Positions 19,582-61,391 of a DNA stretch of 64,000 nt are shown piece after piece. A model generated the notes under the pieces. It ran no database searches and was not told where the DNA came from. It was given only the letters and a program-made list of their open reading frames with translations. Numbering within the stretch: position 1 is the stretch's first letter; each line of letters begins with the position of its first letter. The stretch comes from Antedon mediterranea (Eukaryota > Echinodermata > Crinoidea > Comatulida > Antedonidae). The stretch lies in contig NC_092674.1 in NCBI RefSeq assembly GCF_964355755.1, forward strand, positions 26,028,001 to 26,092,000, given 5' to 3'. The position numbers and the translations under genes were made by a program.

Positions 19582-22500
19582 TTATTTAGTTGACGTAATG
19601 TCTACTGCGTTGTTGCTTTTGTTGCCGAATCTGAAATACCGAAAAATCGCAGCAAGGAATCCAAACTCCAAAAATTCGATAATTGTTATCAAACTCATTC
19701 CACACAGTAAACCCATGTTACCACCTATTTCAGCTTTAAAGCAAACAGAACAATAATAAGGTGAGATGCAGAGTGGTCTCAAGATAGAAAATGAAATACA
19801 TAACTGTAAGTAGGCTTAATTTATATATAGAAAACTCAAAGACTTTATAAAAAGCGTCGTCATCAAACCATAGAGGGTGTTTTTAAATATTATATATCCA
19901 AACGGTAGAGGAAACTATTTCAACAAAAATATAAAATGCAAGTACTAAATACATGCTCAAATGCCTTCTCGTTCACGTAAACAACATTTTTAAAGATAAC
20001 TTATCATCTACACACCAATGGTATAAGATAATTTGTATTACTTACATAGTAACTGTAGTTTTGAAAATGTTGGAACTTCGGTGACTACTTGAAAGTTCAT
20101 TTCTTCAAAATAAATTTGCAGTTGGAGTAGATTTTCTCTGTCATAAGTGTAAAAGAATATTTTTAAAACGGTAAAATAACACGGCATCTAATGCCTACTG
20201 CATGAAGAGCTATTCTTCCGACAAGTAAGCCTACATTATAAGCTAGTTTCGATTGTCACTGATTTTGGAACACTAAGACGATTATTGTAATAATGATATG
20301 ACAAATGAAGTGTTACCTGATGTCCTCTTTCGTCGTGTACCCAGTTTTGTCGAGATAGCCTCCCAAAGCATAATTTGCTGGCCAATAGCTTGTCGAAATC
20401 CGATTGTTGTAGAACGTCTGCTCGCATGCTATTGGACAATCACACTTTGTACCGGAGTTATAGAAATTTACTATTATGGAACATAATGATACAAGATTGA
20501 AATTAATTACGACATCAACAATCTTCATTATCTGCTAAAACAGATATGCATTCATTATTACGCCATTTTATGGTATACAAATAATGAATGTTTATGAGTG
20601 TAATGGTACAAATAATGATGGCATGAGGTTAATGATGCCTAGCCTAATACTAACACTTAACAGGCCTAGGCTTACTATCTAGGTACTAGGCCTAGGCGCT
20701 TGAAAGACAGCAATAAGAAACTTCGACAGACAACTGGAATTAATCCAAGCTAATTATGTTTTTCCAACAATTCTTCCCATTGCTTAATCAAAATCCTAAA
20801 AACGATCTAAAGCTAATTTAAAGGCCTTTTTGAATGAAATTAGTTCATATATCTCCAAACGGTACAAAAAAATCTGCTGCTGCATATCCCGGGTGGTGTT
20901 GACAATCGAAACTGAGGCCAGACGTCAGGTGGTCTGTTGTATTTCACAGTAATTTGTATAATATACATTTTTTTTCATCCGCGAAACGGGTTTTTTTTTT
21001 CGTACACAAAAATGTTTTAAAAAGTACTATTAAATGATCGTTTAATAGTGCGTACTATTGCATGCTATGTGATCCACATTCGTCCAATCAAATGACAGGA
21101 ATTTATATAGGTACAGTATTATATAATATGTTATAGGCTACCTTCTTCTTCGTACGCACACCTGATTGTTTCCTCAACCGTACAATCTCGGACATCGGCT
21201 GTAAAATGTAATCAAATCCTTTATTAAGACTTTGTAAATTTAATTTTCTACTTAGTATTTCCGATCTTCATCAACATCGTCGTCGTCCACCACATAACCC
21301 ATAATGCAGAGCCATAATAATTATATATATATATGGTTCTGCCTTGATTCTTGATGCAGAAAAATAATCGTATAAAATGGACAGATTTCACCAACCCTGC
21401 ATCCTGCATAAACCTATCTCCACTCTGGATCTAAATATTACGATCGCTTACTATGACTAGATTTGATCTCGTCGCTTTGACGAGTTAGAAACTGAGTGAA
21501 GTACTTGGCAAAATATTGCTACAGAGGACGCGTGTTGGTATTTCAGCCAATGTTAAAATAATACAAATTGTTCTATTTTTCATTTGTCAAGTTATTAGTA
21601 ACCGATTTTATTGAATTTCAATAGGCATGTTCTATAAATATATAGGCCTACCTATTTACACCGAAACATTCAGAACGATAACTTGAAAAACAGCCAAAGC
21701 AAGTAGGATACTGCTGTGTAACTGGCATATTATTTTGTCAAGTAATTAGATAATGACCAGATAACTCCACAGGGCGCCATATTTAAAAGGTCAATCGGAG
21801 AAAAAATTCCATCTAGGCTAGCGCGATGATGTACCGGTAAATTACATCATCCCGCAGGCCTCGGACTTTTTGTCCCGATTGGTGGCGCCCTTTGGAGTTA
21901 TCAAAGTCGCTTATTGTACCTGACATAGTTGGGTGTTTACATCCACATATTTTAGTGATATATCTGTACTTGCATTCGTTGATGCAATTCGTCTCGGTGT
22001 AAGCTTTCGTGTATTTTAGAGCCCTGCTTGTACAGTTAGATGGGTACGGATGTGCTAGGTTAACGACCTATAAGGAAAAAGGAGTTAAATGAATGAACAA
22101 GAATTATAACGACAATTTACCATCAATATTATGTTTAGTTCACACTAGAGACGCAACACAACGACGTAACGCAACGTAAGGGATTCACAAGCGATGGATA
22201 AAGCGTGGTTCCCACTAGCGACGCAACGCAAAGACATAACGCAACGCAATTGAATTGACCAATCACAAGCGATGGCTTATTCGCTTGTGATTGCTAACTG
22301 TCTATAACTTCGCTTGTCATTGGTTAAAACGCTTGCGTTGCGTTTACGTCCTTGCGTTACGTTCTAGTGGAAACCAAGCTTTCGCTTGCGTTGCGTCTAC
22401 GTCCTTACGTTGCGTCCAAGTGAGAACCAAGCTTAATTATTGCATCAGATCATTACGTCATTGTATATCAACATCATCTTGCAAATGTATCTTCGTAAAT

Positions 22501-24731
22501 GCTTATAGGCCTACCTGTTCACCAGTTAGTCCAACTTGCGTTTTAAAGCCAGGCGAAACAGAAAATCCAAAGGTACCAACTAAGGGATATTCATCTTGTT
22601 GATGTACCAATACCTATTCAACAATAAATATTATTTTTAAACTCATATATCATATTATATTATTGTCACAATTGGCGAAATACGTCTGATTGTACTGTAG
22701 GAAATATAGCAAGATTATGATGATGTTCGCCAATGATAATGAAGATGGAACTGATTTTTTTTTTACATTAGTGACACCTTTCTTACGTTGATCAATTTTA
22801 TACAAACATTTACGTCATTAGGCCTATTGTTACCAAAAAAGTACATTTATAACACGATTCCACGGAAAGCTGTTACCTTTAGTCCAGCTGCATTATTAAC
22901 AGAATATCCATACTCTGTTTGGTTAATGTCAATCTCCAAAATGAGTCCAGTTACATCTCCAGCATTTCGGGTAGTCAATGGATTACTACTATCACCATTA
23001 AACGTATAGCATACTCCAAAGTCGTATATTTTAGTAGAGAAATCATCCGGTCCACATGGCTGATACTGCCATGAACATTCTATAAGCATATCCTCTATCC
23101 GATGGCTAATTCGAAGCAACGTCACCGTAAAATTTATGTCATTATATGGAGTAAAATTAAAAGAGGGTTCCATATAATCCGAGAAAAAAAACGACTTTTC
23201 TCTTTCGGTCATTTCTGTTACACGGAACTGGTTGTAGTTACATAATGTGACAGCCGGAAAAGTGATAACATCGTTTGGAGAGGTGGTGATTGCTGATGAC
23301 GAGTTGTACTGGTAGTATTTGGTTATACTTGAATACACTGCAAAACCCAGCATTGACAATGACGACACCAGCAGTACAGTCCAAATACACCTTGAAGTAC
23401 AGTAAATTGTTTGTTATAAATACTAAGGCAATCTACCAACAGGATGCTGAGCTCGCCTTAAAGATAGAAACTTGTAACAGTCCTTTGTTCTTAAGATTGG
23501 CTGCGACAAATTCATACTAGTTGCGGTTACAGTACCAAGTACATTCTCCGATTTATGTTTAAGGCTTTATAGATGAGAGCCGAAACGTGTCGCAACCACA
23601 CATCAAACCTCTGATCTAATGGAACTCAGCATCCTGTTGTTAGATTGCCTTTTAAATACATATACTTATGTGGTATCATTATTAAGATAGTTCGAATAAT
23701 GTTTTGAATTTCTGAATAATTAAGATCTAACTTGATGGAATGTTTGAACATGATAACTGTGATAAGGATGAAGATTATGTTGATGAAAATGATATTTGTG
23801 GTAGTTGAGTTGGTGATCAAAATGATTAGAAGAAACTTGAAAGATTAGATAACGACAATACGATACGTGATTATCATTATTATTTATTCAACTTAATTTT
23901 ACAAGGGTAGATCTAATACCTGCTGTACTACAGCAGTATCTGACTTGAAGAGGCCCGCTTGAAACAACAAAAATATACAGACGACATCCAAACATAAAGA
24001 TACAAGGGGATTCATAAAGTTAAAATGTTCAATGAGAATAAAAATGATCATAATATATACAATAAAATGAGGATGATGAAGCTCCAAACAAATTTAATAA
24101 CAAAAATATTGTAATAAAATGAACAGATAAAACATTCATTTTCTAAGTGTAGCTCTATTTACACTTAATGTTTGATGGAATTAGTTCAGGCTTAGTGCCT
24201 ATTTGCTTCCATGTCTAGTCTTAAAAAATGTTTCGACTTTTCAATGTGTTGGCTGATGGGGGCTGAATAACTGTGACAGGCAGGGCATTCCAATACTTAA
24301 TTATTCTGATTGAAAAAAAAGTTATTTTTGCACAAGAGATTTGCTCTAAGTTTTGGACGATAAAGCTTCAGGCTGTGACCACTAGTTCTGTTGTTACGAG
24401 AGATGGTGAAGAAGTCGTCTGGGTTTATAGCCTATTTATGGTTACCTGGCAGTTTGGCACAACCATTACAATAACAAATTGAAGATGGAAAGGTTTGAAT
24501 GTCAAAAGATGATGGCTTCAACTATCGATAAGCATTCTTTAAAACCTCCAGGAATATGCACCTAATAGGCCTAAGTACCGCGCAGCCTACATTATACAAA
24601 ATGCACCTCTCTTACCTTCTTATTGTCGCAATGTCCTTATTTCCAACAAATCGGATCCCATGAAGAGAAGTTTCTCCAGTTAGCTGTTGGAAATCACCTA
24701 CATCTTTGACTTCATCGTGTGTTTGTGCCAT
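19582..24731 (-). CDS. DEG/ENaC sodium-channel subunit, paralogue A
   Basis: Eight exons: 24731-24616, 23390-22877, 22613-22515, 22067-21920, 21198-21142, 20470-20317, 20137-20046, 19733-19582; 443 residues. Order of landmarks: N-terminal HG gating motif (TSLHGIRF), TM1 at the start of exon 2, FPAVTLCNYNQFR, FGVCYTFNG, SPGFKTQVGL, Cys-rich exons with CDCPIACEQ, then TM2 with the filter G405-M406-S407. This is a two-TM, large-ectodomain cation channel subunit; family members form trimers in the plasma membrane. The start is the first in-frame Met that survives (MAQTH): the position of paralogue B's upstream ATG is ATA here, so the N-terminus may be 19 residues shorter. Introns hold a 555-bp insertion (20570-21125), a MITE (21761-21902), nested M2 elements (22135-22434) and a LINE scrap (24188-24435). 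Ligand unknown. Confidence 0.9.
20570..21125. mobile_element. Insertion in gene A, absent from the same intron of gene B
   Basis: About 555 bp between exons 6 and 5 of gene A, missing in B, where flanking intron sequence is continuous near 26566-26570. Its left end (AATGAATGTTTATGAGTGTAAT) and right part (GTTTAATAGTGCGTACTATTGC) recur at 51067-51690 in gene E. No coding potential seen; probably a nonautonomous DNA element. Confidence 0.65.
21761..21902. repeat. MITE-like element, 'TAACTCCAGAGGGCGCCAT' family (M6), gene A copy
   Basis: Ends ATAACTCCACAGGGCGCCAT and its inverse GGCGCCCTTTGGAGTTAT. The gene B copy (27155-27902) has the same ends but is split by a 500-bp inverted-repeat element. 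Confidence 0.75.
22135..22434. repeat. MITE-like elements, 'GACGCAACGCAAGGACGTAA' family (M2), nested pair
   Basis: An outer copy (CACACTAGAGACGCAACACA ... TTGCGTCCAAGTGAGAACC) seems to contain an inner copy at about 22200-22382. The centre has the palindromic words AATCACAAGCGAT / ATCGCTTGTGATT. Absent from gene B at the same intron site (about 28120). Confidence 0.75.
24188..24435 (-). mobile_element. LINE C-terminal fragment in intron 1 of gene A
   Basis: The minus strand encodes a decayed tail typical of CR1/L2-like LINEs (TSGHSLKL ... IIKYWNALPVTV). The equivalent piece is in gene B (29880-30090), so it was there before A and B duplicated. Confidence 0.6.
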
Positions 24732-24849
24732 TTTGAATGTTCTGTCGCCTTTCGTTATAGTGATATCTTTCGTTGTATGCACAGTTATAGCATTTAAAAT
24801 ATTATTTGTCCTTATAGCTTTTGCTGGTTATTTACAATTACTCAATCAC

Positions 24850-25546: not shown

Positions 25547-25575
25547 GACGCATTGTTTACTTCGTAACGCGTTTC

Positions 25576-28500
25576 TTATTTAGTTGACGTAATGTCTACT
25601 GCGTTGTTGTTTTTGCCGAATCTGCAATACCGAAAAATCGCAGAAAGGAAGCCAAACTCCAAAAATTCGATAATTGTTATCAAACTCATTCCACACAGTA
25701 ACCCCATGTTACCACCTATTTCAGCTTTAAAGCAAACAGAACAATAATAAGGTGAGATGCAGAGAGGTCTCAAGGTAGAAAATGAAATACAGTACAGTAT
25801 ATAATTTATATATAGGAGACTCAAAGACTTTGGGGAGACTTTATAAAAAGCGTCGTCAAACCAAAGAAGGTGTTATGACTTTTTAATATTGTATATCCAA
25901 ACGGTAGAGGACGCTATTTCAACAAAAATATAAAATGCAAGTACTAAATACATGCTCAAATGCCCTGTTCTCGTTCACGTAAACAACATTTTTAAAGATA
26001 ACTTATTATCTACACATCACTATAAGATAATTTGTATTACTTACATAGTAACTGTAGTTTTGAAAATGTTGGAACTTCGGTGACTATTTGAAAGTTCATT
26101 TCTTCAAAATAAATTTGCAGTTGGAGTAGATTTTCTCTATCATAAAGTGTAAAAGAATATTTTTAAAACGGTAAAATAACACGGCATCTAAGGCCTACTG
26201 CATGAAGAGCTATTCTTCCGACAAGTAGGCCTACATTATAAGCTAGTTTCGATTGTCACTGATTTTGGAACACTAAGACGATTATTGTAATAATAATATG
26301 ACAAATGAAGTGTTACCTGATGTCCTCTTTCGTCGTGTACCCAGTTTTGTCTAGATAGTCTCCCAAAACATAATTTGCCGGCCAATAGCTTGTCGATATC
26401 CGATTGTTGTAGAACGTCTGCTCGCATGCTATTGGACAATCACACTTTGTACCGGAGTTATAGAAATTTACTAATATAGAAAATATGATACAAGATTGAA
26501 ATTAATTATGACATCAACAATCTTCATTATCTGCTAAAACAGATATGCATTCATTATTACGACATTTTTAATTATAGGCTATACCTTCTTCTTCGAACGC
26601 ACACCTGATCGATTCCTCAATGGTACAATCTCGGACATCGGCTGCAAAATTAAATCAAATACTTTAAGATTTTTTAAAGTTTAATTTCTACTTAGTATTT
26701 GTGATCATCATCAACATCGTCGTCGTCCACCACATAACCCATAATGCAGAGTCATAATAATTTATATATAGATGGTTCTGCCTTGATCCTTGATGAAGAA
26801 AAAAAATCGTATAAAGTGGACAGATTTCACCAACCCTGCATCTTGCATAACCCTCCCTCCACTCTGCATCTAAATATTACTATGACTAGATTTGAACTCG
26901 TCGCTTTGACAAGTTAGAAACTGAGTGAAGTACTTGGAAAAATATTGCCACAGAGGGCGCTTGTTGATATTTCGGCCAATGTTAAAATATTACAAATTGT
27001 TCTATTTTTCATTTGTGAAGTTATTAGTGACCGATTTTCTTGAATTTCAATAGGCATGTTCTGTAAGTAGGCCTACATACCTATTTACACCGAAACATTC
27101 AGAACGATAACTTGAAATAAATTCTATTTTGTCTAGTAATTTAATAATTACCAGTTAACTCCAGAGGGCGCCATATGTAAAGGTTAATCGAGAAAAAACA
27201 AGCACGAATTCGAACGAGTGCGATATTCGGGGAACAGCAAAAGAAGCTGTAATGACGTCATAAGGCGGGATGTAACGTCACATACACATCAATATCCTCG
27301 CTACCAAATACAGATATTTTTATTCGGGTTACCCGAGTCTAGGACTCGCTTATCTTCTCCTTCTCTTCCTCTTCCTCTTATATCTGGACACTATTGAGCC
27401 AACTTTCAAGTCCTACTACTTCTTTACGCGTTGTCTGACGGCTCTGAAACATGGCATGCATATACTAGGGTAATAGGTGAACAAAGCTATAGAGAAAAAA
27501 TTGTCGTACTTCTACCGCATGCAGAATTACGACAATACTACAACGAATAAAGAGAGTAGTAGTACTTTATAAATCGCACTTTTTTCGATTGGTACCATGT
27601 TTATGACGTCATAATTCTGCATCCGGCGGTTAAAGTACGAACATTTTCTCTCTATAGCTTTGTTCACCTATTACCCTAGTATATGCATGCCATGTTTCAG
27701 AGCCGCCAGACGAAGCGTAAAGAACTAGTAGGACTTGAAAGTTGGCTCAATAGTGTCCAGATGAAAGAGAAGATGAGAGTCCTAGACTCGGGTACCCCGA
27801 GAAAAAAATCTTCGATTATGTAAATTTACATCATCGTGCTGTCTCGAATTGGAACTTTTTGTCCCGATTGAACTTTTAAATATGGCGCTCTCTGGCGTTA
27901 TCGAAGTCGCTTATTGTACCTGACATAGTTGGGTGTTTACATTCACATATTTCAGTGATATATCTGTACTTGCACTCGTTGATGCAATTCGTCTCGGTGT
28001 AAGCTTTCGTGTATTTTAGAGCCCTGCTTGTACAGTTAGATGGGTACGGATGTGGTAGGTTTACGACCTATAAGGAAAAAAGAGTTAAATGAATGAATAT
28101 GAATAACGACAATTGATCGTCAATATAGTGCATCTCAGATCATTACGTCATTGTCTATCAACATCATGCAAATGTATCTTCGTAAATGTTTATAGGCCTA
28201 CTTGTGCACCAGTTAGTCCAACTTGCGTTTTAAAGCCAGGCGAAACAGAAAATCCAAAAGTAGCCACTAAGGGATATTCATCTTGTTGATGTACCAATAC
28301 CTATTCAACAATAAATATTACTTTTAAGCTCATTATCATTTAAGTGTCACAATTGGCGAAATACGGCTGATTGGAGGATATATATATATTATTATGATGA
28401 AGTTTGCCAATGATTCTGAAGACGTAACTGATGTGATGATTTATTTTACATTAGTATAGTGACATTTTCTTACGTTGATCAATTTTATACAAACATTTAG

Positions 28501-30398
28501 GCCATTATTGTTACCAAAAAAGTACATTTATAACACGATTCCACGGAAAGCTGTTACCTTTAGTCCAGCTGCCTTATTAGCAGAATATGCATACTCTGTT
28601 TGGTTAATGTCAATCTCCAAAATGAGTCCAGTCGTATCTCCAGCATTTCGGGTAGTCAATGGATTACTACTATCACCATTAAACGTATAGCATACTCCTA
28701 AGTCGTATGTTTTAGTAGAGAAATCATCGGGTCCACACGGCCGATACTGCCATGAACAGTTTATAAGCATGTCCTCTATCCGATGGCTAATTCGAAGCAA
28801 TGTCGCCGTAAAATTTATGTCATTATATGGAGTAAAATTAAAAGAGGGATCCATATAATCCGAGAAAAAAAACGAATTTTCTCTTTCCGTCATTTCTGAT
28901 ACACGGAACTGGTTGTAGTTACATAATGTGACAGCCGGAAAAGTGATAACATCGTTTGGAAAGGTGGTGATTGCTGATGACGAGTTGTACTGGTAGTATT
29001 TGGTTATACTTGAATACACTGCAAAACCCAGCATTGACAATGACGAGACCAGCAGTACAGTCCAAATACACCTTCAAGTACAGTAAATTGTTTGTTATAA
29101 ATACCAAGGCAATCTAACAACAGGATGCTGAACTCGCCTTGCAAAGATAGAAACTTGTAACAGTCCTTTGTTCTTAGGATTGGCTGCGACACATTCATAC
29201 TAGTTTCGGGTACAGTACCAAGTACATTATTTTTCAGCGGTTTATGTTTAGGGACTTTAGAAGAAATGATCGTGTCGCAACCACACATAAAACCTTTGAT
29301 CTAATGGAACTCAGCATCCTGTTGTTAGATTGCCTTGTGGTATCATTATTAAGATAGTTCGAATAATGCTTTGAAGCTCTGAATAACTAAGATCTAACTT
29401 GATGGAATGTTTGAACATGATAGCTGTGATAATGATGAGGATTGGATTATGTTGATAAAAATGATATTTGTGGTAGTTGAGTTGGTGATCAAAATGATTA
29501 GAAGAAACTTGAAAGATTAGATAACGACAATACGACACGTTATTATTATTATTTTTGTATTCAACTTTATTTTACAAGGGTAGATCTAATAGCTGCTGTG
29601 CTACAAGCAGAAGCTGACTTGAAGAAGCCCGCTTGAAACAACAAAAATATACAGACGACATCTAAAGGATACATAAGGATTCATAAAGTTAAAATTCTCA
29701 AACAGATTAAAAATGATCATATATATATAAAATAAATTGAGGATTATGAAGCTTCAAACAAATTTAATAACGAAAATATTGTAATAAAATAAACAAATAA
29801 AACATTCATTTTGTAATTGTAGCTCTATTTACACTTAATGTTTGATGGAATTAGTTCAGGCTTAGTGCCTATTTGCTTCCATGTCTAGTCTTAAAAATTT
29901 GTCTCGACTTTTAAATGTGTTGACTGAGGAGGATTGAATAACTGACTCGGGCAGGGTATTCCAATACTTAATTATTCTGATTAAGATTTGCTTTAAGTTT
30001 AGGACGATAAAGCTTCAGACTGTGACCACGAGTTATGTTGTTACGAGAGATGGTGAAGTCGTCGTCTGGGTTTATAGCCTACCGTATTTAATCCAAGACT
30101 CTTATTAAGGTTACCTGGCAGTTTGGAAACCATTACAATATAAAATCGAAGATGGAAGGGTTATATGCACCTAATAGGTCTAAGTACCCCACAGCCTACA
30201 TATAAAAAAAATGCACCTCTTTTACCTTCTTATTGTCGCAATGTCTTTATTTCCAACAAATCGGATCCCATGAAGAGAAGTTTCTCCAGTTAGCTGTTGG
30301 AAATCACCTACATCTTTGACTTCATCGTGTGTTTGTGCCATCTTGAATGTTCTGTCGCCTTTCGTTATAGTAATATCTTTCGTTATACGCACAGTCAT
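25576..30398 (-). CDS. DEG/ENaC sodium-channel subunit, paralogue B
   Basis: Eight exons: 30398-30226, 29071-28558, 28300-28202, 28067-27920, 26641-26585, 26470-26317, 26136-26045, 25724-25576; 461 residues. Very similar to A in every exon. Shows the HG motif (TSLHGIRF), TM1 (CIWTVLLVSSLSMLGFAVY), FPAVTLCNYNQFR, GVCYTFNG, Cys-rich exons, CDCPIACEQ, and TM2 with G424-M425-S426. The start (MTVRITK) lies about as far from the HG motif as the starts of C-F; the in-frame Met at 30341 is the alternative and the only one left in A. Exon 2 is 514 bp as in A, against 505 in C-F. The intron between exons 5 and 4 carries a 500-bp inverted-repeat element. All frames intact; ligand and partners unknown. 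Confidence 0.92.
27155..27902. repeat. M6 MITE-like element in gene B, interrupted
   Basis: The same outer ends as the gene A copy (TAACTCCAGAGGGCGCCAT ... GGCGCTCTCTGGCGTTA), with a younger inverted-repeat element inserted inside. Confidence 0.7.
27313..27811. mobile_element. Long inverted-repeat element (fold-back/MITE-like) in gene B
   Basis: Arms of about 170-190 bp, e.g. CCGAGTCTAGGACTC near 27333 and GAGTCCTAGACTCGG near 27777; also GAAACATGGCATGCATATAC against GTATATGCATGCCATGTTTC. The centre is not repeated. No coding capacity. It lies inside an M6 element and is absent from gene A. Confidence 0.8.
29880..30090 (-). mobile_element. LINE C-terminal fragment in intron 1 of gene B
   Basis: Counterpart of 24188-24435, shortened by a deletion around 29985, where A still has about 25 further bases. 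Confidence 0.55.
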
Positions 30399-31858: not shown

Positions 31859-34800
31859 TTACACTTTCTCTTTCATCAAAAGCTGTAGAATTGTGACGAA
31901 GACAAAGTCCAGCAATTCAACCACAGTAATCAAACTCATTCCACATATTAAACCCATGTTTCCACCAAGTTCAGCTGTAACAAAAAGAAAAAATCGAATG
32001 TCCTCTTAAGAAATGGCAAACACAATGTTTAGTGCGCTTATATTGCATATTGCATATTAAACTGACGGTTTGATTGTAGTGTGCCTCATTCAGCTCTAAC
32101 TACAAATTAATATAATAAAAGTATTAAATTGTAATAATCAGCAATCATAATTACATGTACTGTACTTGTGACAAGAATCATTTACTTACAAAGCAACTGT
32201 GTCACAGAGTATGACGGGACGAGTTCAACAACGGTCATGTCCAAATCTTCAAATGATATGCCAACCTGAAGAATGTTTTCCCTGAAAAACACACAATATC
32301 GTAGAGCATTTCTAAAGCTTGGTTCTCACTAGAACGTAACGCAAGGACGTAAACGCAACGCAAGCGTTTTAACCAACGACAAGCGAAGTTATAGACAGTT
32401 AGTAATCACAAGCAAATAAGCCATCGCTTGTGATTGGTCAATTCACTTGCGTTGCGTTACGTTCTTGTGTTGAGGCGCTAGTGGGAACCACGCTTAAGAG
32501 GCTATGACTATGTAAAATCAGTCTAAGTTCATTAAAGTTAAGCCAGGCCCTACCTTACGTATTCTTTTGTATATCCATAGTTGTTTTCAAACGATTGTAT
32601 CATCGCTGGATCCGGCCATAAGGTGCTGGATGTACGTGGTTCATATGTCAGCTGATCACATGCTAACGGACAATCACATGATGCCTTTTTATCAGTAACA
32701 AAAAGATCTGAAGATAAATTATTTTTAGGTTAAAATCAAACTCAAAAGCAAATAAGTAACCAAAGTACATAGACAGCCACCGTGTGAGTTTAAACATGAG
32801 AAATATAATCAATATAATGAAATTCGTCTAATTAAAAAATAACAAGAAATGCATTCTTGAAAATCGTAAATTTATTTTCTGTATATTGAGTATCATAGTG
32901 AGTTATAAAAATCAAACTAATCCACAATTCATATTTGTTTGTTTAGAATTTGAACAGTTTACAAACGATTTAACGAAGATACTATGTTATTGAAATTCAT
33001 ATACGATCTATTTAGACATTAAACTTACCATAGGCAACATTACCACAGTCAATGGACTGTTGAGCGGTACAAAGCGGGACATCACCTAAAAAAGACGATA
33101 TTTAGAGACATCAATGTCCGTCTGGACTAACAAACTGCTCAGAATTAGAAAATTTAAATTGTTAATGTGTGATGGCAACCACTGTTCTACAGTAGCCTAA
33201 TGTGCCTATCAATTGCTCTCCTTACGCTCAGTCCATTGTTTTTAACAAGTAATTTTTAACATATTTATTTACATATACAATTGTTTTCCTTCTAAAGGAT
33301 AAAAGAGAGGCCGAAACAAAAATGAGGTTTAGTGTAGTTCTGTAGTTAATTTATTTGATGTTTTTTATCCGTGTCTATTTTTAATCCGTGTCTATTTATA
33401 ATTGTTATTTTATATATTCACTCATAGGCCAACATTGGCTTGTAATTCTCAAGAATGTGATTAAATAAATAAATACAAAACAAAAAATATAAAACTAGAA
33501 ATACCATGATCAATAGAACATGAACCCATTCAGCCATTTTTTGTAATCATAACTGAAATTAGTAAAGAATATTTTGTTTACAGTACTATGATTTTGTGTC
33601 AACATAACTAATTAATTTCCTGTTTTGAGGGAAAAAGACAAAATGGAAAAAAAAATACTAATGTAAGAGATTAAACAGAAAGAAAAAGAAAGACAAATGA
33701 AAGAAAAGAAAGAAAAACACAGAAGGAAAGACAAAAGGAAAAAAATAAGTCAATATGACTAATTAATTTACTCTTTTGAAGGAAAAGAAAAAATGGAAAA
33801 AAAGAAAATATTAAAGTAAGAAATTAAAAAGAATGAAAAAAGAAAGAAAAAGTAAAGAACAAATAAAGGAAAGAAAAGAAAGAAAAACACAGGAGGAAAG
33901 AAAAAAAAATGTAGTCAATATGACTAATTCATTTACTCTTTTGAAGGAAAGGAAAAAAAGGGGAAAAAATAATAGTAAAAAATAAAGTAACAGAATAAAA
34001 AGAAGGAAACAAAGAAAAAAAAGGAAAGAACAAATAAAGGAAAGAAAAGAAAGAAAAACACAGAAGGAAAGAAAAAAAATGTAGTCAATATGACTAATTC
34101 ATTTACTCTTTTGAAGGAAAAGGAAAAAAATGGGAAAAAATAATAGTAACAAATAAAGTAACAGAATAAAAAGAAGGAAACAAAGAAAAAAAGGAAAGAA
34201 CAAATAAAGGAAAGAAAAGAAAGAAAACACAGAAGGAAAGAAAAAAAATGTAGTCAATATGATTAATTTTACTCATTTGAAGGAAAAGGAAAAACGGGGA
34301 AAAAATAATAGTAAAAAATAAAGTAACAGAATAAAAAGAAGGAAACAAAGAAAGAAAAAAAAATAAAGAGAAAAATCTGGAAAAAAAAGAAAAAACATAT
34401 AAAGATAATAAAGATAATAAGATAAAGTAAATGAAAAAAGAACAAATAAAGAAATATATTTAAAAATCTGTTTTATGATATTGTTATGGAAATTGAATAT
34501 ATGAACAATTATGAGTAACTTGTTTTCTTTAAGTTATTATCTTTAGTAAGCCTAATACAGTAGTTAGTAATAGTTTTCAATAGTTATGTTTGTGTTGAAG
34601 GAGATGGGCTGACGAGTCCGTTCAAACTGAAAACAAGTAAATGTAAACCGTGTGCTTTTACTTAAATTAAGTTTTAGACTAACCCATAAAATTTTGTAGT
34701 TGACATCCACATTTTTCGATGACGTAATCATATCGGCACTCATAAATACAAAGAGCTTTGGTATAAGTGCTTTTTCGTTGAAGCGCTTTCGCAGTACATT

Positions 34801-41831: not shown

Positions 41832-43515
41832 CTAGTTTTTTTTATTGACTTTCTTTTTCATCAAACGCTGTAAAGCTGTGGCAATAATAAAGTCCAACAA
41901 TTCAATAACAGTAATCAAACTCATTCCACATATTAAACCCATGTTTCCGCCAATTTCAGCTGTAAAATAAGAACCTTTTTTGATTATATCTTACACGCAA
42001 ACAAGATGCTTATAAAGATATGCCTATCTATCGGTACGTCTAGTAGTAGTTACACGCCTGGTGTTTAGAGTGCTTCGTATTGCAAACTGCATCTACTTTA
42101 GTCTTTGATTGCAGTGTTCAATTCTGTTCTATAACAATTAGTATTGTTATTATTAAATTGTAGGCCTAATAAATAGCAATAATTGTGATCAACTTACAAA
42201 GCAACTGTGTGGCAGAGTATGACGGGACGAGTTCAACAACGGTCATGTCCAAATCTTCAAATGATATGCTAACTTGAAGAATGTTTTCCCTGAAATATAC
42301 ACAATATCGTAGGCTAGTGCTATAGATAAATTCTGTGAGACTACAAAAAGATGAATAACTTGTTTTCCTTTGTTCTAACGTTAAGATACGGGTTGTTTTG
42401 TCAATTTACGCTAGCGCAACGCAAACGCGGGTAACTAAAACTTGGTTCTCACTAGCGACTAAACGTAACGCAACCCACGCAACGTAAGAAAATGCCATTT
42501 CAATAATTGTGTTTTCCACCACCTGCGTGAAATCAAACCTGCGATGTTTGCAGCACTATACGTCGTCGGTTTCCACTTACGCAATACAGCACTTTGCGTC
42601 AATGCGTCGTTGCGTTGCGTCGCTAGTGGGAACCACGCTTAATGATGTAAATTGCGCAAAATATGACTTCGACGCCCTAGTGTGAACCACTCTTAATCAT
42701 TTACCTTACGTATTCTTTGGTATATCCATAATCGTTTTCAAATAATTGTATCATCGCTGGATCCGGCCATAAGGTGCTGGATGTACGTGAATCATATGTC
42801 AGCTGACCACATGCTACTGGACAATCGCATGAAACATTTTCATCAGTAACAAAACGGTCTGAAGTGAAAGTATTTATAGTTTTAAAAAAGTTCAACATTT
42901 CTAAAAGTTACACTTTTTGAATGGTCAAAGAGCAGTACATTTTTGCACATCCCTGTTGGTGTAGAATAGATTTTACCGAAATAAAATTGCAGAAACATTT
43001 GAATTAAAAAACAACAGCATTTGTACATGTACAAGAAATACATGTTGGAAACCATAACATTTGTGTGTCGGTAGAAGCAAAAAAACATTCCCTTACTAAA
43101 GCTTGGTTCCCACTAGAACGTAACGCAAGGACGTAAACGCAACGCAAGCGTTTTAACCAATGACAAGCGAAGTTATAGACAGTTAGCAATCACAAGCGAA
43201 AAGGCCATGCCATCGCCTGTGATTGGTCAATTCACTTGCGTTGCGTTACGTCCTTGCGTTGCGTCACTAGTGGGAACCACGCTTAATGCTTGGTTGCCGC
43301 AACGCAGGAACGTAAGCGCAACGCAAATGATTTGACCAATCAGGAACGATGGATTCATTCATTCATTCAATTCACATTTATTTACTCATCGTTTATAAAT
43401 ACAGTTTCATAGCATAAATGATGGCAAGGATCCTGCATAGAGAAGTTTACACTTCTGTTTTCGCAGGACCCTTTTACATAAAAAACATAAAACAATAAAC
43501 ACAACATAATAGATA

Positions 43516-43547
<32 letters not shown>

Positions 43548-50588: not shown

Positions 50589-53500
50589 TCATTTACTCTG
50601 ATCGATTGTGCGCGTTTTAGTGAGTCTAAGCTCTTTCTTTTTCATCAAACGCTGTAGAATTAAGACAATTAAAAAGTCCAGCAATTCAACAATAGTAATC
50701 AAACTCATTCCACATATTAAACCCATGTTTCCACCAAGTTCGGCTGTAAGTAAGAACATGCATTTTATTTATAAGAAAACACAATCAAGACAATTAAATA
50801 AAGATAGGCCTATCGATGTAGTTAGCAAACTATTTTCAAGAGTGTTTGATTGCAGTGTCCTATTCTACCTAACTATAAGTTATTCTTTTACCAATATTTT
50901 ATCAAAATTGTATATGCCGTTAACATTTACTTACAAAATAACTGTGTCACAGAGTATGACGGGACGAGTTCAACAACGGTCATGTCCAAATCTTCAAATG
51001 ATATGCTAACTTGAAGAATGTTTTCCCTGAAAATACACAATATCACAGTATCTGCAGTTATACATATTGAATGTTTATGAGTGTTATGGTACAAATAATG
51101 GCATGAGGTGAATGATGAAAGGTTATATAATAACGAAGCGACAGTCGAGTTGATATATTAACCTTTCATCATTCACCAAATGCCATTATTTGTACAATTA
51201 CACGAATATAACACATTCATTATTAGTTTTTTATAACATCTAAATAGATTCCTGTCATTTGAATCAAATAGAAGGTAGGTCTAGGCCTACATTGGTTCAC
51301 ATTGATTAAAATAGTAACATTTGGTTTTTAATAATTATATTAAATATTATTATTTACATGGATTTTATAAATGTACCTACTGTGTGAGTGTGTGTTAATT
51401 ATGTAAAAAACGATCTATAGTTAATTTAAATGCATTTAATCTAAATTGGTACATATATCTTTCCAAAAATGTACTTCCATCGCTAAACCAGTCATAACAA
51501 TAACATTGGCTGGCGACGAAAGTACAAAATAGGTGGCGCTGTTGTATTTCAAAAGCAATAGAATAAAAAAAAATATTTTCCAAACACAGATTTTTTTTTT
51601 CGTACGATCGTTTAATAGTGCGTACTATTGCACGGCATGTGACCCACAATCGTCCAATTAAATGACAGGAACTTATTTAGGTGTTGTAATAAGAGTTCCT
51701 AATTAACTTAATAGTTGCGCTTGCGCCAGCCCATCTTGCACACAAAGACAAACGCCGTCTCTTAAGTACTCATTTATTGCACTCTTCTCTTTTGACCGGC
51801 CGTCTAATCTAATTAAGTTAAGTTAGCACGTCATTGTGCCCCACGTCTGATCCTGTCGGCCATACTAGCTTACCTTACGTATTCTTTTGTATAGCCATAA
51901 TTATTTTCAAATAATTGTATCATCGCTGGATCCGGCCATATTGTAGCGGATGTACGTGGTTGATATGACAGTTGGTCACATGCTACTGGACAATCACATG
52001 ACACATTTCTATCACTAACAAAACGATCTGAAGTAAAAGTATTTACAGTTTGAAATTAAACTAAAATAACAATATTTGAAACGTTCTCAAAAAATGCCTG
52101 GTTTTCCTTAATACGCGAATCTATCCGTTAGTTAGTTAAGTTGATGTTAAACTTACTATAATAATCAAAACCACAATTGATGGATTGTAGAACAGTACAA
52201 TCTGGAGCATCACCTAAAAAGAAACAAAAATCAATCAATAGAGCCTACTATCTGTCACTAGATAAAACTTAAATGACTATCGCAAGTCAGTTAGATACTA
52301 GTCTAGGAGGGCGTATCTAGTGAAAGTATTACTATCCGTCTGGTCTAACCGCGACTGATTTATAGCTGTTTCAAATTTGCATGTTCAATGGTAGTGTTAA
52401 GGATGATAGTATTCCATAATAGGCTAAATTGAGTTAAACAAATTTTGAAATATTGTGGAGTGACGTAAAATTTATAATGTTGTCTATGGAGATTGAACAT
52501 TTTTCAGTATAATATCGATGATATTGTTATTTTTAGATTCGAAAACTTTTCTCGGTTTCACAATAGTCACCAACCCTGCTTTGCGAGTTACAACACTCTC
52601 AAATTGTCACTGAAAGCTGAACGTGCATGTTAAATATAATGTTATATCAAGCTACATATACGTTTTAAAGTTTTATACGTTCTATACTAACCCATCGTAT
52701 TGGATAATTTACATCCACATTTTTCACTGACGTAATCAAATCTGCACTCCTCAATACAAAGAGCTTTAGTATAGGTTCCTGTGTATTGAAGACCTTTCTC
52801 TGTACAGTTTGATGAGTATGGGTGTGGTAAAGACTTAGTCTAGAATAAAACAAGAAATATTTTTCTAATGCTATGTTTTGTATGCCAATATAAAATACCT
52901 ATTATTTAATTACTTTATTTTATAGGCCTAAAATATTTCGTATTAAGTATGAAGTTGCATTAGGCTTACCTGAGCTCCCTTTAAAGCAATCTCTGTGTGA
53001 AAACCAGGGGATACTGAAAATCCAAACGATTTTATAAGAGGTCGTTCATCCGAAGGATGTATCAACATCTAAAAGTAAAAAAAGTTTGGCAACTTATGAA
53101 AATGTGAAATGAAGATGCATTAACTTGTACTGCTGTACAAAGTACCGACAATAAGTTATTTTCATTCAGAATCACAACAATGATAGAATGCTTGCTAACA
53201 AGAAGGCCTACATAAATAAACTAATCCACCGGTATCAGCAATGAACCATGGAAATCATGTCTACACTGATTTTATACCGTTATAATTACGTCATCGTTAT
53301 CAATTAATCATGCATAACGATGAGTAACTAGCGCCATCACACTATTATGAATGTTCGCAAGAGTGCTCCAAAGTCAATCTTACTTAAATACATTTTTACT
53401 TATATCTAACTTGCTTGTAACAGAATGTACTCAATGTAATTGCCGTCCAACAAATTAGAAGATAATGGAGAAAGGACAGATGAAATATAGATAAATTGGA

Positions 53501-55061
53501 TGTAAAATAGAGTACTAAAAACCAATGTTCCAAAACCAGTAACAGATACGTGAAATAGTAAAATACCTTAATTCCTTTAATGCCTTGTTCATGACCAGTA
53601 TTTTCTGTATCATTGATATTAATCTGCAAGAACAGAGAACTTGAGACGCCAGCATACGAAACATTACGCGTCGTCTTAAACGTGTAACACACCTCAAAAT
53701 CAACGAAATGGGTTGTAAAGTTTTCTGGCCCACAATCCTCTAAACTCATCCATGTACAATTCGTAAGTAGATCATCGATAGAGTGACTTGCTCTTAGGAA
53801 AAGCTCTGTAATGTTCCAATCGTTTATAGTAGAATAATTAGCAACATCTCCAATGTGGTATGCGTTAATGAACTCGAATTCTTCGTCTGTTACCTGCGAT
53901 TTACGTAACTGGTTGTAGTTGCAGAATGTAACGGCGGGAAACGCGATTTCGTCGTAGTGAGCAATGGATATCTTCGTTGCAATTGGGTAAGACCTGTAGT
54001 TTACAATGGACTCTTTCAATATGACAACGAGAGAGGCTAGCGCTATGAAAACCAGAGAACACCAAATTAACCTGTAAAAGTATATTATAATTAGAAAATC
54101 ACGTCACGAAATATATAAACTAGGCCTAGCATCATGTGAAATGTGCAAATACAATATATTTAAACATATATCTTCTAATACAATTATTAAATAAAGATTG
54201 TATCAATCATCAGCGAACAAAAAAGGCGGACAGTTTTTTTACTGGGAAAATGAGACTGATGCTAATGTTTCAAAATAGAGGAATCCATTTTATCCTTTAA
54301 AGCAGCTTTAAACAAACTCTGAAAATACCTAATTAGATCGACAATAGGGCCTACTCAGTACTAATTATCTTATCCATTGTAATGGAACCAGACGAATTAA
54401 TTCAGGTTTTTTAAGGTAAAGTTAGGTTGGGAAATAAAATAATGATTAAAGATATAATACAGAATATGCCTATTGAGATATTTAGGCCCTTCAACACTAG
54501 TTTCCATGGTTAGATAGGTCATTATTAGTATAATAATAACAATAAGTCCTTTTTAACAGAATACATGATTGAATGAATATTGGTGGTGATCAACAATATT
54601 TAAAACAATATTTTTGTCTAGGCTGGGGAAATAAGATTATTAAAATATAATAAAGAATATGCCTATTGGGATATTTAGGTACTTCAACACTAGTTTCCAT
54701 GGTTAGACAGATTCGTATTACACAAGTCATTTTTAACATAAAATACATGATTGTATAGTGGTGGTGAAGGCAAAATATATCAAATGATATAAAGCAGTGA
54801 AAACCACAACCCACTATAGTACTATATAAAATGTATACTATATGTTACTATGTTACTATATAAAATGTAACCGTTTACCCACCTTCTGGCAGCGCAGATT
54901 GATTTGTTTCCGACGTACCGTATTCCGTGAAGCGTTGTCTCGCCCGTAAACGTACACACTTCATCAGTTAAGCTGGATTTTTCAAGCTGTTTTCCATCAT
55001 TCGAATCCGTTGTCTCTCGACTAATCGTAAACATCGGATAAACTTTACCATTTTCATTCAT
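50589..55061 (-). CDS. DEG/ENaC sodium-channel subunit, paralogue E
   Basis: Eight exons: 55061-54883, 54071-53567, 53068-52970, 52839-52692, 52213-52157, 52027-51874, 51026-50935, 50743-50589; 462 residues. Landmarks: GETTLHGIRYVG, TM1 LIWCSLVFIALASLVVIL, FPAVTFCNYNQLRK, VCYTFKTT, SPGFHTEIALKG, CDCPVACDQ, filter G423-M424-S425, basic tail RLMKKKELRLTKTR. The usual FGVCYTF reads FEVCYTF here, and exon 6 has SATIWPDP in place of SSTLWPDP, small private changes. The start (MNENGKVYPMF) is aligned with the relic and F; a Met two codons upstream (55067) is possible. The exon 7/6 intron is long and holds a repeat related to the gene A insertion. Complete and uninterrupted. Confidence 0.93.
51067..51690. 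mobile_element. Repeat related to the gene A insertion, in gene E
   Basis: The left part (51067-51235) is an inverted repeat with ends AATGTTTATGAGTGTTATGG / AACACATTCATTATT. The right part (51407-51690) shares GTTTAATAGTGCGTACTATTGCA and AATGACAGGAA with 20800-21125. Confidence 0.6.
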
Positions 55062-56496: not shown

Positions 56497-59400
56497 TCAT
56501 TTACTGATTGTGTGCGTTTTAGTGGGTCTAAACTCTTTCTTTTTCATCAAACGCTGTAGAATTGCGACAATAACGAAGTCCAACAATTCAACAATAGTAA
56601 TCAAACTCATTCCACATATTAAACCCATGTTTCCACCAAGTTCGGCTGTAAATAAAAATATTTTTGTTTACCTTTTAAGAAATTTTACAAATATAATATG
56701 CCTATCATTTAGTGCCCTTCATATTGCAAACTGTATTTACTTTAGTGTTTAATTGCAGTTTTCAATTTAAAAATTAGTATTGTTATTATTAAATTGTAGG
56801 CCTAATAAATAGCAACAATTGTGATCAACTTACAAAGCAACTGTGTCACAGAGTATGACGGGACAAGTTCAACAACGGTCATGTCCAAATCTTCAAATGA
56901 TATGCTAACTTGAAGAATGTTTTCCCTGAAACATACACAATATTAGAGTTAAGATCGTAAGATACATACTTTGGGACTGGGACACAAGGTACGAAAAGTT
57001 CTATAATCATATATTTGCTCAAGCTTTGGCTCTGGGAAGGGAATTTAGAAATGCTGCACATACGCCGTTAAACATTATGAAAGTGTACCAGCCCTTGTAG
57101 GCCTACTCGATGGCAAAAGATGGTTTCATTCAGTTGCACCTTCTCTTACACTTTTTACAAGCCATCTGATTATTCCAGCTACCATGCCATTTGATCCAAT
57201 TGTGTGTGGCCATACTTTCCATTATGACAAAACGTAACGACGCGTACGTAAGCGCAACGCAAGTATTTGTCATTAGGTTAGGACGTGATTGATCAAATTA
57301 TATTCGTTGCGTACTCGTCCTAGTTGAAACTAATCCTAACTTACCTTACGTAATCCTTTGTATATCCATCATTATTTTCAAATAATTGTATCGTCGCTGG
57401 ATCCGGCCATAAGGTGCTGGATGTACGTGGTTCATATGTCAGCTGATCACAAGCTACTGGACAATCGCATGAAACATTTCTATCACTAACAAAACGATCT
57501 GAAGTAAAAGTATTTACAGATTTTTTTAAAGTTAAAACATTTGAAAAGTTAAACACTTTTCAACATAACGGTCAGAGGACAATGAATGAATGTGTGCATA
57601 TCTCTGTTACAAATATACTGTACTAGATCACCGAAACAGAATTGTGAAAAAGCAGCAAACATCATTTTAGAAGAATACATTTTTCAAGGAAATATTTCCT
57701 CGTTTGTTTAAGCTTACAGAGGTTAAACCTAAATGATGCGGATAACCTAACGTCCACAATGCATAATTTTGGATTATGCATAGGCCTAGAGTGATTCCTG
57801 ATTTGTTTTTCCACCGTCAAGCATCAGTTAGACCTAGAAAGTCTAAAAAGGTAATTTAAAGAAAAAGTAGTCAAATTGACTGGAAGTCAATGGTTTATCA
57901 AATAGTATCTTTTTATTAGTGAAAACAGGTTTTTTTTCTGCTGATTAACTTTATTAAAACTGCAAAATGGCCTATTCAAATCGTTTTTATTATTCTTCAT
58001 TTTTCATGTTTTTGAGAGATATACATCTTTAACTTACTATAAGCCGCATCACCACAATTAATGGTCTGTAGAACAGTACATTCTGGAACATCACCTAAAT
58101 AAAAAAGAAAATCAATAAAATGGTTTTAATGGACATTTGTCGAATTGGTTCAAAGGGGCTGAACCAAACCTAACACCGATTTGAGGCTAATCTGGGCACT
58201 TTATTATATCATATTTAGGGCCTTTGATGATCACCAAAAACATCAAGATAAAATGTCGGTCCTTATTTTTTTACATCATCGAAAACGTATCTGGAAAATG
58301 AAGAAAGTTTGAAACTTTGCGGATTATGACAATCTTTCAATTATCTTGATTCATTAAGAATAGACCGCCATAGCATTCATTCTTTCAGTAAAATATCAAA
58401 CTCGAAATTATACCACGTATATATATGGATACAAACAGTTTTTTTTTCATATAGCTACCGATTTAGTGCTGAAGGAGACCAGACATGTAAATTGTGTGCT
58501 TTATGAGAAAATCAAGCTACTTTTTAAAAATAGGTTGCAAACTATACTTACCTATCATATTAGTTAGTTTACATCCACATTTTGCGACGACGTAATCAAA
58601 CCTGCACTCCTCAATACAAAGAGCCTTAGTATAGGTGCCTGTGTATTGAAGCTCTTTCCCAGTGCACTTTGATGAGTATGGGTGTGGTAAAGACTTAGTC
58701 TAAATTGAAAATAAAAATTAGTTTATTTTTCCAATCTGTTTAGCAAGTAAATGTGAAATATAAGACAAATTGTTATTAGTTTGTAAAGGCAGTACTACTT
58801 ACTTGGACTCCCTTTAAAGCAATCTCTGTATGAAAACCAGGAGATACTGAAAATCCAAACGACTTTACAAGAGGAAGTTCATCTGCAGGATGTATCATCA
58901 TCTGGAGGAAAAGGTTAATCTCTGTTTATAACATCAGACTAGTTTGACAAAAAAGGGTGATGTGCCCAAACATGGTAGTGACGTCATCGTCACATGTTTT
59001 TGTCGCAAACAGTTTGATAGTGTATAGAGCTTTAGATTACTATAAAATAGAGAATATTTTTTTTTTTAATCTGTTATACATTCTTTGTTAAAAGTTTGCT
59101 GTAGTGTGGTTAAATAAGCTGAAATTTCAAAAAATAATAAAAAATAATAAAACTTGAAAGTCGCAAATAAAAGTATATTGGTATAAATGTTAAAACGTTT
59201 GAATATGATTGAACTTATCCATCACTTAATAAAAGAAGTTAAGCATTTATTTACTTTTGATTAAAACCAGTCAACTGCATAATTAATCTTCCATCTGTAG
59301 TGAGGCTTTTTCAATTGTAAACTTTGTCATATTCATTTTGACGGTTGTTACCCATTATTTTTATGATATTTTAATGATCACGTTATCTATAATTGCAGTT

Positions 59401-61391
59401 GCATTTGTTCTTCTGTATAGTGTTTTATATTTAACCTTGCCATTCCATTTGTAAACTGAAAAGGAAATCATTTTTCTTTGTGACTAGAGATCGACACATA
59501 CCACTACGTATTGATCACCAACTAACCTGAGGTGAATTTAAAAACGTTTCAGAATATCAATATAAATCAGTGTTTCGTAAATAGTAGGGTGTGTCGAAAA
59601 TGAAATGTTTACATGTAGATCAAAGGTGACCATAGCAACCTGAACAAGTATTTCTTGTTGATGATGGTAACGATCAAGTTGAAACATACAAAAAGGGAAT
59701 GAGAAAAATAGTGAAAAAACGTGGTCCAACAAAAATCTTACATATCTACAATGCAATGTTTCTGGAGATGTTTCATTAAACATTAAATAGATGCCTGCAT
59801 GTGGAACTTCAGCGTGATAAGAGACGCAGCGCAATGCCATAGACGCAACGCAAGACGTAGACGCAACGCAAAGACGTAGACCAATGTCAAGCGACAGTTT
59901 CAATAATCGCTTGTGATTGGTCAAGTTACTTACGTTGCGCTCTATCTCACTGCGTTGTGTCTCTAGCGGGAACCATTAAATGGAGGCAATGGTAAAAACG
60001 AATTGGCGTACCTTAATTCCTTTAATGCCTTGTTCATGACCAGTATGATCTGTATCATTGATATTAATCTGCAGGAATAGAGAACTTGAGACGCCAGCAA
60101 CCGATACATTACGCGTCGTCTTAAACGTGTAACACACCCCAAAATCCATTATGTCAGTTGTAAAGTTTTCTGGCCCACAATCTTCTAAACTCATCCATGT
60201 ACACTTCGTAAGTAGGTCATTAATAGAGTGACTTGCTCTTAGGTAAAGCTCTGTAAGGTTCCAATTGTTTATATTAGAAAAATTGGCATAATTTCCACTG
60301 AAGAATGCGCGAATGTACTTTAATTCTTCGTCGGAGACCTGCGATTGACGCAACTGGTTGTAGTTGCAGAATGTAACGGCGGGAAACGCGATTTCGTCGT
60401 AGTGAGCAATGGATATCTTAGTTGCAACTGGGTAAGACCTGTAGTTTACAACGGACTCTTTCAATATGATAACAAGAAAGGCTAGCGCTATGAAAACCAG
60501 AATGCACCAAATATATCTGTAATAAATGTTTATTTAATTATTAATTCAAATTATAATAAATCAGGGTAACACAAATAAGCAGACAGTTTTTAGTGCGAGA
60601 GAAGAATACATTTTTGTTTATAGACTCGACACTATTGAAGAATGTGTTAAAGTTGATGATGAATAGGGAAAACTTTTAATCCATAAAAATATGAAGCGGA
60701 GATTTTATATTAATCCTACCTCATTGAGATTATAGAAAATACTACTATTGCACTAACGTTGTTTTTTCTCCATTAAAATAGATTAGATATTTCAACACAA
60801 TTAGTGTTTGTTCATTGTTGAGGATGGAATAACATTATTAAACAAAGATATATTGTATATAATTAAAACATTTGAATTACTAAATTCTATCGAATAAGCG
60901 CCCAGTTTAATAGCCTCTATGATGGTAAATTTACACACAAACCAATGACTAATACAAGTAGGCCTAAGCATAATTTCTTAAATGGTTATATAATCGTTTA
61001 TCATTGGCGTAACTGCTATGAGTGCTCACGGACTAAACTCAGAGGCCCCGGATCTTATGGGGGCTTCTTATATAGCAGTGTCCAGAGGAAAAAACAGGCA
61101 TTAAAATATGTCGAAAAGGGCTAAAAAAAACACCCGAGGACTCCAGCGTTAGAGGGCTCCTAAGCCTGCAGGGGCCTCATGCGTTACGCCACTGTCGTTT
61201 ACCTACCTTCTGGCAGCGCAAATTGATCGGTTTCCGACGTAACGTATTCCGTGAAGAGTTGTCTCGCCCGCAAACGTACACACTTCATCAGTTAAGCTGG
61301 ATTTTTCAGGCTGTTTTCCATCATTGGAATCCGTTCTCGTTTCCCGATGGCTAAACGTAAACATCGGATAAACTTTACCGTTGACATTCAT
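56497..61391 (-). CDS. DEG/ENaC sodium-channel subunit, paralogue F
   Basis: Eight exons: 61391-61207, 60516-60012, 58901-58803, 58699-58552, 58094-58038, 57498-57345, 56925-56834, 56645-56497; 462 residues. HG motif at 47-48, TM1 about 63-82, FPAVTFCNYNQ at 106-116, then FGVCYTFKTT, SPGFHTEIALKG, the Cys-rich exon with CIEECRFDYVVAKCGC, CDCPVACDQ, and TM2 with G425-M426-S427 followed by a basic tail. Total is shorter than many family members, mainly because of short cytosolic ends. All splice sites are canonical, including GTAAGT after exon 4. An M2 element lies between exons 3 and 2 and traces of one between 7 and 6; an M1 copy (about 58937-59033) lies just past exon 3. First gene of the array in transcription order; nothing channel-like is seen to its right. 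Confidence 0.94.
57220..57337. repeat. Degraded M2-like element in gene F, between exons 7 and 6
   Basis: Keeps AACGTAACGACGCGTACGTAAG and a GATTGATCAAAT core, with a weak right end. The same intron position is occupied in C and D. Confidence 0.5.
57881..58034. repeat. M4-like element in gene F, next to exon 5
   Basis: ATTGACTGGAAGTCAATGG start, GATATACATCTTTAA end; it ends at the exon 5 donor region, so it may supply part of the donor context. Confidence 0.5.
58937..59033. repeat. M1 MITE-like element in gene F, truncated at left
   Basis: CTAGTTTGACAAAAAAGGGTG start, AACAGTTTGATAGTGTATAGAGC end, one CATGGTAGTGA unit inside. Confidence 0.6.
59803..59976. repeat. M2 MITE-like element in intron 2 of gene F
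   Basis: Two to three internal GACGCAACGCAA units, a central AATCGCTTGTGATTGGTCAA and a CTCTAGCGGGAACC end; only about 35 bp from the exon 2 donor, like the D copy. Confidence 0.72.

Follow-up and report, generated by a model that had tools for sequence, protein, structure and literature searches.

Genes of the DEG/ENaC superfamily have multiplied in several animal groups, and the stimulus to which the channels respond has changed repeatedly (PMC9822975). In cnidarians, HyNaC and NeNaC channels represent a lineage-wise multiplication of clade A DEG/ENaC genes, and the HyNaCs include neuropeptide-gated heteromers (PMC9822975, PMC4212090, PMC7889164). Among the residues connected with proton gating, H73 (rat numbering) is found in nearly all working ASICs and K211 in most (PMC10507113, PMC9949801); NeNaC2 and TadNaC2 are proton-activated though they have neither (PMC10507113; for NeNaC2 also PMC9822975). 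Clade A also contains uncharacterised ambulacrarian groups (PMC10507113). Here we describe an array of such genes in the crinoid Antedon mediterranea, located in a stretch of 64,000 nucleotides (C5:26028001-26092000, contig NC_092674.1; henceforth the window), together with genome-wide searches covering the 354 Mb genome in 18 contigs. From sequence comparison, we consider it very likely that one clade A DEG/ENaC gene gave rise to the array in a tandem expansion that is probably lineage-specific, and that the gating of its channels is non-canonical.

By description, the array is like the cnidarian channels in being a lineage-wise multiplication within clade A, and like the uncharacterised ambulacrarian groups in belonging to the same clade and probably to the same animal group. 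Among the papers listed in literature searches on such channels, none treats an ambulacrarian DEG/ENaC array (most subscription papers fall outside this coverage). An earlier note on this DNA had suggested that the expansion may be undescribed: this may hold for the array, but not for the kind of expansion, which is already known from the ambulacrarian clade A groups in PMC10507113.

Six tandem genes and their predicted proteins

Scripted exon chaining recovered six complete DEG/ENaC genes (A-F) arranged head to tail on the minus strand between window positions 19582 and 61391. Each has eight coding exons and does not share its terminal coding exons or its stop codon with another copy; all 48 exons have open frames and 42 of 42 introns have GT-AG borders. 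In window coordinates, the genes and the relic of a seventh are as follows:

Gene F: 56497..61391, minus strand, 462 amino acids; exon chaining, spliced alignment and Pfam ASC match (1.4e-86); exons 61207-61391, 60012-60516, 58803-58901, 58552-58699, 58038-58094, 57345-57498, 56834-56925, 56497-56645 (with stop)
Gene E: 50589..55061, minus strand, 462 amino acids; exon chaining; exons 54883-55061, 53567-54071, 52970-53068, 52692-52839, 52157-52213, 51874-52027, 50935-51026, 50589-50743
Gene D: 41832..48176, minus strand, 453 amino acids; exon chaining; exons 47998-48176, 45568-46072, 44910-45008, 44614-44761, 44087-44143, 42705-42858, 42198-42289, 41832-41959
Relic of a seventh gene, lying between genes C and D: 37852..39227, minus strand; DNA similarity
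Gene C: 31859..37407, minus strand, 444 amino acids; exon chaining; exons 37244-37407, 35203-35707, 34923-35021, 34684-34831, 33029-33085, 32554-32707, 32190-32281, 31859-31974
Gene B: 25576..30398, minus strand, 461 amino acids; exon chaining, exon 5 by similarity to A; exons 30226-30398, 28558-29071, 28202-28300, 27920-28067, 26585-26641, 26317-26470, 26045-26136, 25576-25724
Gene A: 19582..24731, minus strand, 443 amino acids; exon chaining and Pfam ASC match (4.1e-89); exons 24616-24731, 22877-23390, 22515-22613, 21920-22067, 21142-21198, 20317-20470, 20046-20137, 19582-19733

Exons 3-7 measure 99, 148, 57, 154 and 92 bp in all six genes, exon 2 is longer in A and B (514 bp) than in C-F (505 bp), and exons 2-8 are entered in phases 2, 0, 0, 1, 1, 2 and 1 throughout; exon 1 ranges from 116 to 185 bp and the predicted proteins from 443 to 462 amino acids. 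This bears out the earlier note, which had described six complete same-strand genes of eight coding exons with these lengths and identical phases, and the coordinates agree to the base (the stop codon of A ends at 19582 and the ATG of F begins at 61391). Since the chaining imposed GT-AG borders on exons 2-7 and took the lengths of exons 3-7 from that note, it shows that these sizes are possible and keep the frame but did not arrive at them independently. For gene F (and F only), a spliced alignment without imposed lengths gave the same seven introns, using a profile that contained F. The number of open chains was 6 for F, 2 for E, 12 for D, 3 for C, 18 for B and 5 for A, and conserved motifs decided among them. 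For exon 5 of A and B the choice followed a common DVRDCT stretch (B matches A at 52 of 57 bases), and for the exon 1 donor of E it followed likeness to the other copies. The start codon of A is uncertain, as an in-frame ATG lies further upstream in B.

The six genes are assigned to the DEG/ENaC superfamily (PF00858) by profile, LHG motif, cysteine set and G-x-S filter. In a Pfam scan of two of the six (F and A), the ASC profile matched over nearly its whole length (F: E = 1.4e-86, 291.8 bits; A: E = 4.1e-89, 300.1 bits; cut-off 23.6). LHG is present in all six window genes and in 9 of the 11 array models (those of I and J do not include the N-terminus; for genes G-J and N, outside the window, see below). 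As read from the alignment, 13 of the 14 extracellular cysteine columns of chicken ASIC1 hold cysteine in all six, and C291 is displaced by one residue (C276, which ASIC2 and ASIC5 do not have, was excluded from this count).

Among solved structures, ASIC1 was nearest to F (7.3e-65, 223 bits) and ASIC2 to A (8.2e-60, 206 bits), ahead of ASIC5 in both cases (3.7e-46, 161 bits for F; 8.5e-46, 160 bits for A); ENaC and FaNaC were weaker for both proteins (FaNaC 1.5e-26 to F and 4.2e-36 to A). The array thus resembles ASIC1 and ASIC2 along most of the protein, including the motif, cysteines and filter type named above, but differs from them in a shorter finger region and in residues connected with gating and selectivity. 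Specifically, H73 is missing from all 11 array genes (the column reads S, S, V, V, I, V in A-F) and K211 from 10 of 11 (N, N, H, H, Y, V in A-F; gene N has K); both are also missing from ASIC5, which, like the array, belongs to clade A. Rat E411 is retained in all six window genes. The selectivity filter is GMS in A-H and N, in contrast to GAS in ASIC1, ASIC2 and ASIC5. Since I and J likewise have GAS, GMS does not characterise the array as a whole; the other rows of the alignment used below for intron mapping have GAS as well, except C5y with GGS (the region of C11f is uncovered), and the clade B gene C9a has GMS too. A single origin of GMS was considered and set aside, as the free tree needs two changes, though one clade of the nine GMS genes was not rejected by the approximately unbiased (AU) test (p-AU 0.181).

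Expansion of the cluster and its intron signature

Within the window, the genes fall into two subfamilies, A/B and C-F. Identity to F is 85% for E, 84% for D and 79% for C, and 42-43% for B or A. Genes A and B form a recent pair, with blocks 91-97% identical, 88.9% identity over 5,059 aligned bases and a nonsynonymous divergence (dN) of 0.029. Pairwise ratios of nonsynonymous to synonymous divergence (dN/dS), obtained by a counting method without a significance test, were 0.44 for A-B, 0.34-0.44 among C-F and 0.22-0.26 between subfamilies, where dS is saturated (>2). All 15 pairs were below 1, which fits retained function in all six genes; the earlier note had named values near 1 as evidence against its reading, and the range found is 0.22-0.44. 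Mean dS in C-F varied by exon from 0.10 (exon 7) to 0.49 (exon 5); gene conversion, considered on account of this spread, was set aside. For C and D, 100-base pieces from the 400 bp of upstream sequence were 83-85% identical, compared with 57-74% for the ends of their introns; for the five other C-F pairs upstream identity was 53-79%, near the shuffled background (mean 59%, maximum 72%). The sequence upstream of the relic is about as similar, and we leave the idea of a shared promoter without a conclusion.

The relic consists of an exon 1 remnant (39056-39227, with a frameshift before LHG) and a truncated exon 6 remnant (37852-37971); a DNA search within the window found no further exon remnant at E 1e-3. 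The cluster as a whole spans C5:26.05-26.48 Mb and includes, beyond the window, five more gene models (one incomplete) and two pseudogenes. Genome searches gave at least 90 exon-level matches with the ASC family and 71 with protein F, those on C5 continuing to 26.48 Mb. We modelled seven loci from 26092001-26117000 and 26432000-26488000 of C5. The models of genes G, H, I and N span most of the protein, that of J was partial at first and later improved, and K and L are pseudogenes. Among the matches listed from both searches, none fell in the 315 kb between the two stretches. In both K and L (C5:26459300-26475200), exon 4 contains a stop and the 5' half of exon 2 is disrupted; the two agree in the predicted lengths of their first eight introns, and their matches lie 8,645 bp apart. 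They seem to have come from the recent duplication of a gene that was already dead. The earlier inventory was thus right about the six genes and missed both the two-exon relic and the cluster beyond the window. Its claim of a local expansion is upheld by the tandem copies, the shared derived introns, the recent A/B pair, the relic and the two pseudogenes, and comparison of these sequences shows copies apparently still arising (A/B) and dying (the relic, K and L).

Intron positions were mapped, as ASIC1 residue/phase, in 11 array proteins (A-J and N), in ASIC1, ASIC2 and ASIC5, and in six other clade A models from the same genome; C2a, C2c, K and L are left out of this map. All 11 array genes share an intron at ~248/0 that the six other models lack. 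Conversely, introns at ~98-100, 124, 172-184 and 214-228 split the first half of the six other genes and occur in no array gene, and it is their absence that makes exon 2 of the array so long. The exon architecture is a derived mark of the cluster, and tandem copying from a single ancestral gene would predict such identical exon lengths. The remaining introns are older or less telling. The 11 array genes all have those at ~281/0, 401/2 and 432/1. Ten of them have 350/1, J being the exception, and 331/1 lies in the same column in 10, with J two columns off; as all five are also present in some or most of the other genes, they are old, and four of them (~281/0, 350/1, 401/2 and 432/1) are common to the array and the crinoid's own ASIC-like gene C2b. 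Intron ~432/1 had been a candidate for an array-only character and was dropped when longer loci showed it in other genes. Intron 44/2 is found in nine of 11 array genes, but it may also occur outside the array, as the models of C8b, C11c and C11f start near that point.

In the final tree (33 rows, LG+C20+F+G4, with the mis-predicted middle of C2a cut out), which replaced a first tree built on incomplete models of C2a, C2b, C8b, C11c, C11f and J, genes A-I and N form a clade (support 99/98) within clade A (100/100) and outside the ASIC clade (98/95). They join C8b, C11c, C11f and J in a larger group (95/92). ASIC1 and ASIC2 group with the crinoid's own C2a and C2b (98/95), and this ASIC clade lies with ASIC5, C5x, C5y and C2c (95/90; the inner order is without resolution). 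C2b has H73 and no K211, and with the proton-gating histidine in a gene that groups with ASIC1/2, the genome has a separate ASIC-type gene. The clade A branch excludes the three ENaC rows (alpha, beta and gamma) and eight of the crinoid's own genes, which leaves the array outside ENaC (clade B). On the free tree, the array thus seems to lie within clade A and outside ASIC. Both trees were built without the partial model C3a and without K and L.

Two further observations concern other genes of this tree. A second same-strand DEG/ENaC array lies at C8:4321598-4449049 (plus strand), with nine ASC matches from profile position 1 within 130 kb; the one gene modelled from it (C8a) falls outside clade A, on the ENaC side, and tandem multiplication in this genome has thus involved both sides. 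Genes C5x (C5:29.99 Mb) and C2c (C2:15.40 Mb, modelled for its first half only) are near-identical over the modelled part (end branches 0.049 and 0.0026), and represent either a recent inter-chromosome copy or an assembly issue.

Gating and alternative explanations

The sequences show that genes with an uninterrupted exon 2 and the intron at ~248 were copied in place, with at least 11 models still recognisable. We propose that each gene encodes a subunit with two predicted membrane helices and a cysteine-rich extracellular domain, and that subunits trimerise, perhaps also across neighbouring paralogues. The trimer would conduct Na+, be of the amiloride type and occur in sensory or neural cells. 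An extracellular factor would open it or keep it open by a route other than the canonical ASIC proton mechanism, which the residues of the array make unlikely; by analogy with NeNaC2 and TadNaC2, some proton sensitivity is possible. Nothing in the sequence points to a particular ligand, so the label "sensory- or peptide-gated" in the earlier note may or may not apply. For the gate itself we lean, tentatively, towards a small ligand from outside the cell, which may be a neuropeptide, as in HyNaCs, with a constitutive or pH-modulated leak like that of BASIC or TadNaC6 ranked next. A bolder proposal, which we regard as rather unlikely, is that the array represents a clade A family of its own, the third after ASIC and BASIC, confined to ambulacrarians and forming different heterotrimers opened directly by neuropeptides or environmental chemicals, i.e., a deuterostome counterpart of HyNaCs; its marks may be the fused exon 2, the intron at ~248 and a mostly methionine-bearing G-x-S filter.

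Other explanations place the array differently or doubt that its copies work. It could consist of derived ASICs, a fast-evolving branch of the family proper (group B) in which the histidine and lysine of proton gating were lost, and the nearest solved structures (ASIC1 for F and ASIC2 for A, the two genes searched), the retained E411 and an AU test that did not reject the array constrained with ASIC (p-AU 0.074) all agree with this. We nevertheless hold it to be unlikely, because the free tree joins the array to C8b, C11c, C11f and J, and ASIC to ASIC5, C5x, C5y and C2c, because C2b stands apart as an H73-bearing gene with ASIC1/2, and because the first-half introns differ between the array and C2b, as they do between the array and ASIC1/2. 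Less probable again is that the copies resemble BASIC/ASIC5 and act as leak channels that are open at rest and modulated by calcium, pH or amphipathic compounds such as bile acids. The absence of H73 from all 11 genes, as in ASIC5, and of K211 from 10 would suit such channels, as would the position of the uncharacterised ambulacrarian groups near BASIC and TadNaC (PMC10507113). However, ASIC5 scores well below ASIC1 or ASIC2 for both proteins searched, C5x and C5y are by score the more ASIC5-like genes of this genome (their tie to ASIC5 being weak in the first tree, 81/61), and grouping the array with ASIC5, C5x, C5y and C2c gave p-AU 0.024. That most copies are non-functional, or that the locus is one transcription unit with alternative exon cassettes, we consider highly improbable: the genes are closely spaced on one strand and the relic, K and L show that copies die, but each of the six has its own terminal coding exons and stop codon, and dN/dS is well below 1 in every pair.

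Several points weigh against the reading we prefer, i.e., a probably lineage-specific clade A expansion with non-canonical gating. Constraining the array with ASIC is tolerated, as noted, and the set it was tested with around ASIC5 is no supported clade (ASIC5 enters the tree as one long row, and its link with C5x, C5y and C2c is without resolution). Gene J lies outside the array in the final tree and inside it in the first; all 11 array genes as one clade were not rejected (p-AU 0.283). The earlier note had proposed a tree with families from echinoderms and other phyla; ours answers this with own-genome, ASIC and ENaC rows, which put the array in clade A, but not with other echinoderm or phylum families, having neither HyNaC, NeNaC, TadNaC, PPK and FaNaC rows nor a second ambulacrarian, so that "lineage-specific" rests on one genome. 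The K211 column sits in a variable, gapped region, and proton gating in NeNaC2 and TadNaC2 means that loss of H73 and K211 does not exclude it here. Finally, expression, function and stimulus of the array channels are predicted from sequence.

Surroundings of the array and its use

Two tandem repeats accompany the genes: a purine-rich 171 bp repeat with 4.1 copies in intron 4 of gene C (33677-34359), and an 87 bp repeat with 2.9 copies and 97% matches at 61980-62228, ~0.6 kb upstream of the ATG of F. Downstream of A, open frames at 11349-18641 (minus strand) may be exons of a neighbouring gene; the frame at 11349-11756 has a weak SLAIN-motif match (20.8 bits, Pfam cut-off 27), and those at 14619-15128 and 18270-18641 have no Pfam match. 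A candidate DIRS-type retrotransposon occupies 3267-7742 (minus strand), with a reverse transcriptase frame at 4184-6217 (RVT_1, 6e-23), an overlapping frame at 3267-6206 with a weak tyrosine-recombinase N-terminal match (4.1e-4, just under the Pfam cut-off) and a frame at 6207-7742 without Pfam match. The block has a G+C content of 55% (32-38% in flanking blocks), and its long open frames suggest a fairly recent insertion.

Elsewhere in the genome, a mir-2011-like precursor with a long hairpin was found at C3:28281256-28281275 (minus strand; Rfam E = 2.3e-11, 57 bits against a gathering score of 80; fold z -4.4 for a 111-base piece), and let-7 is present. The family mir-2011 is ambulacrarian, and bantam and mir-2 are protostome families: bantam, sought with at most one mismatch, was not found, nor was mir-2 in a weak search that scored 60 of 131,623 candidates. 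Tunicates carry cellulose synthase, which was not found in this genome; nor was mitochondrial COX1. Let-7 and the mir-2011 hairpin point to an ambulacrarian, without proof.

The array does not overturn current views of the superfamily. Its members, which range from near-identical to ~40% identical, form a natural series for studying how gating and ion selection diverge after duplication, and the clear intron signature and the separate ASIC-like gene in the same genome add to this use. Within the series, the change of the filter from GAS to GMS makes a direct test of selectivity possible.

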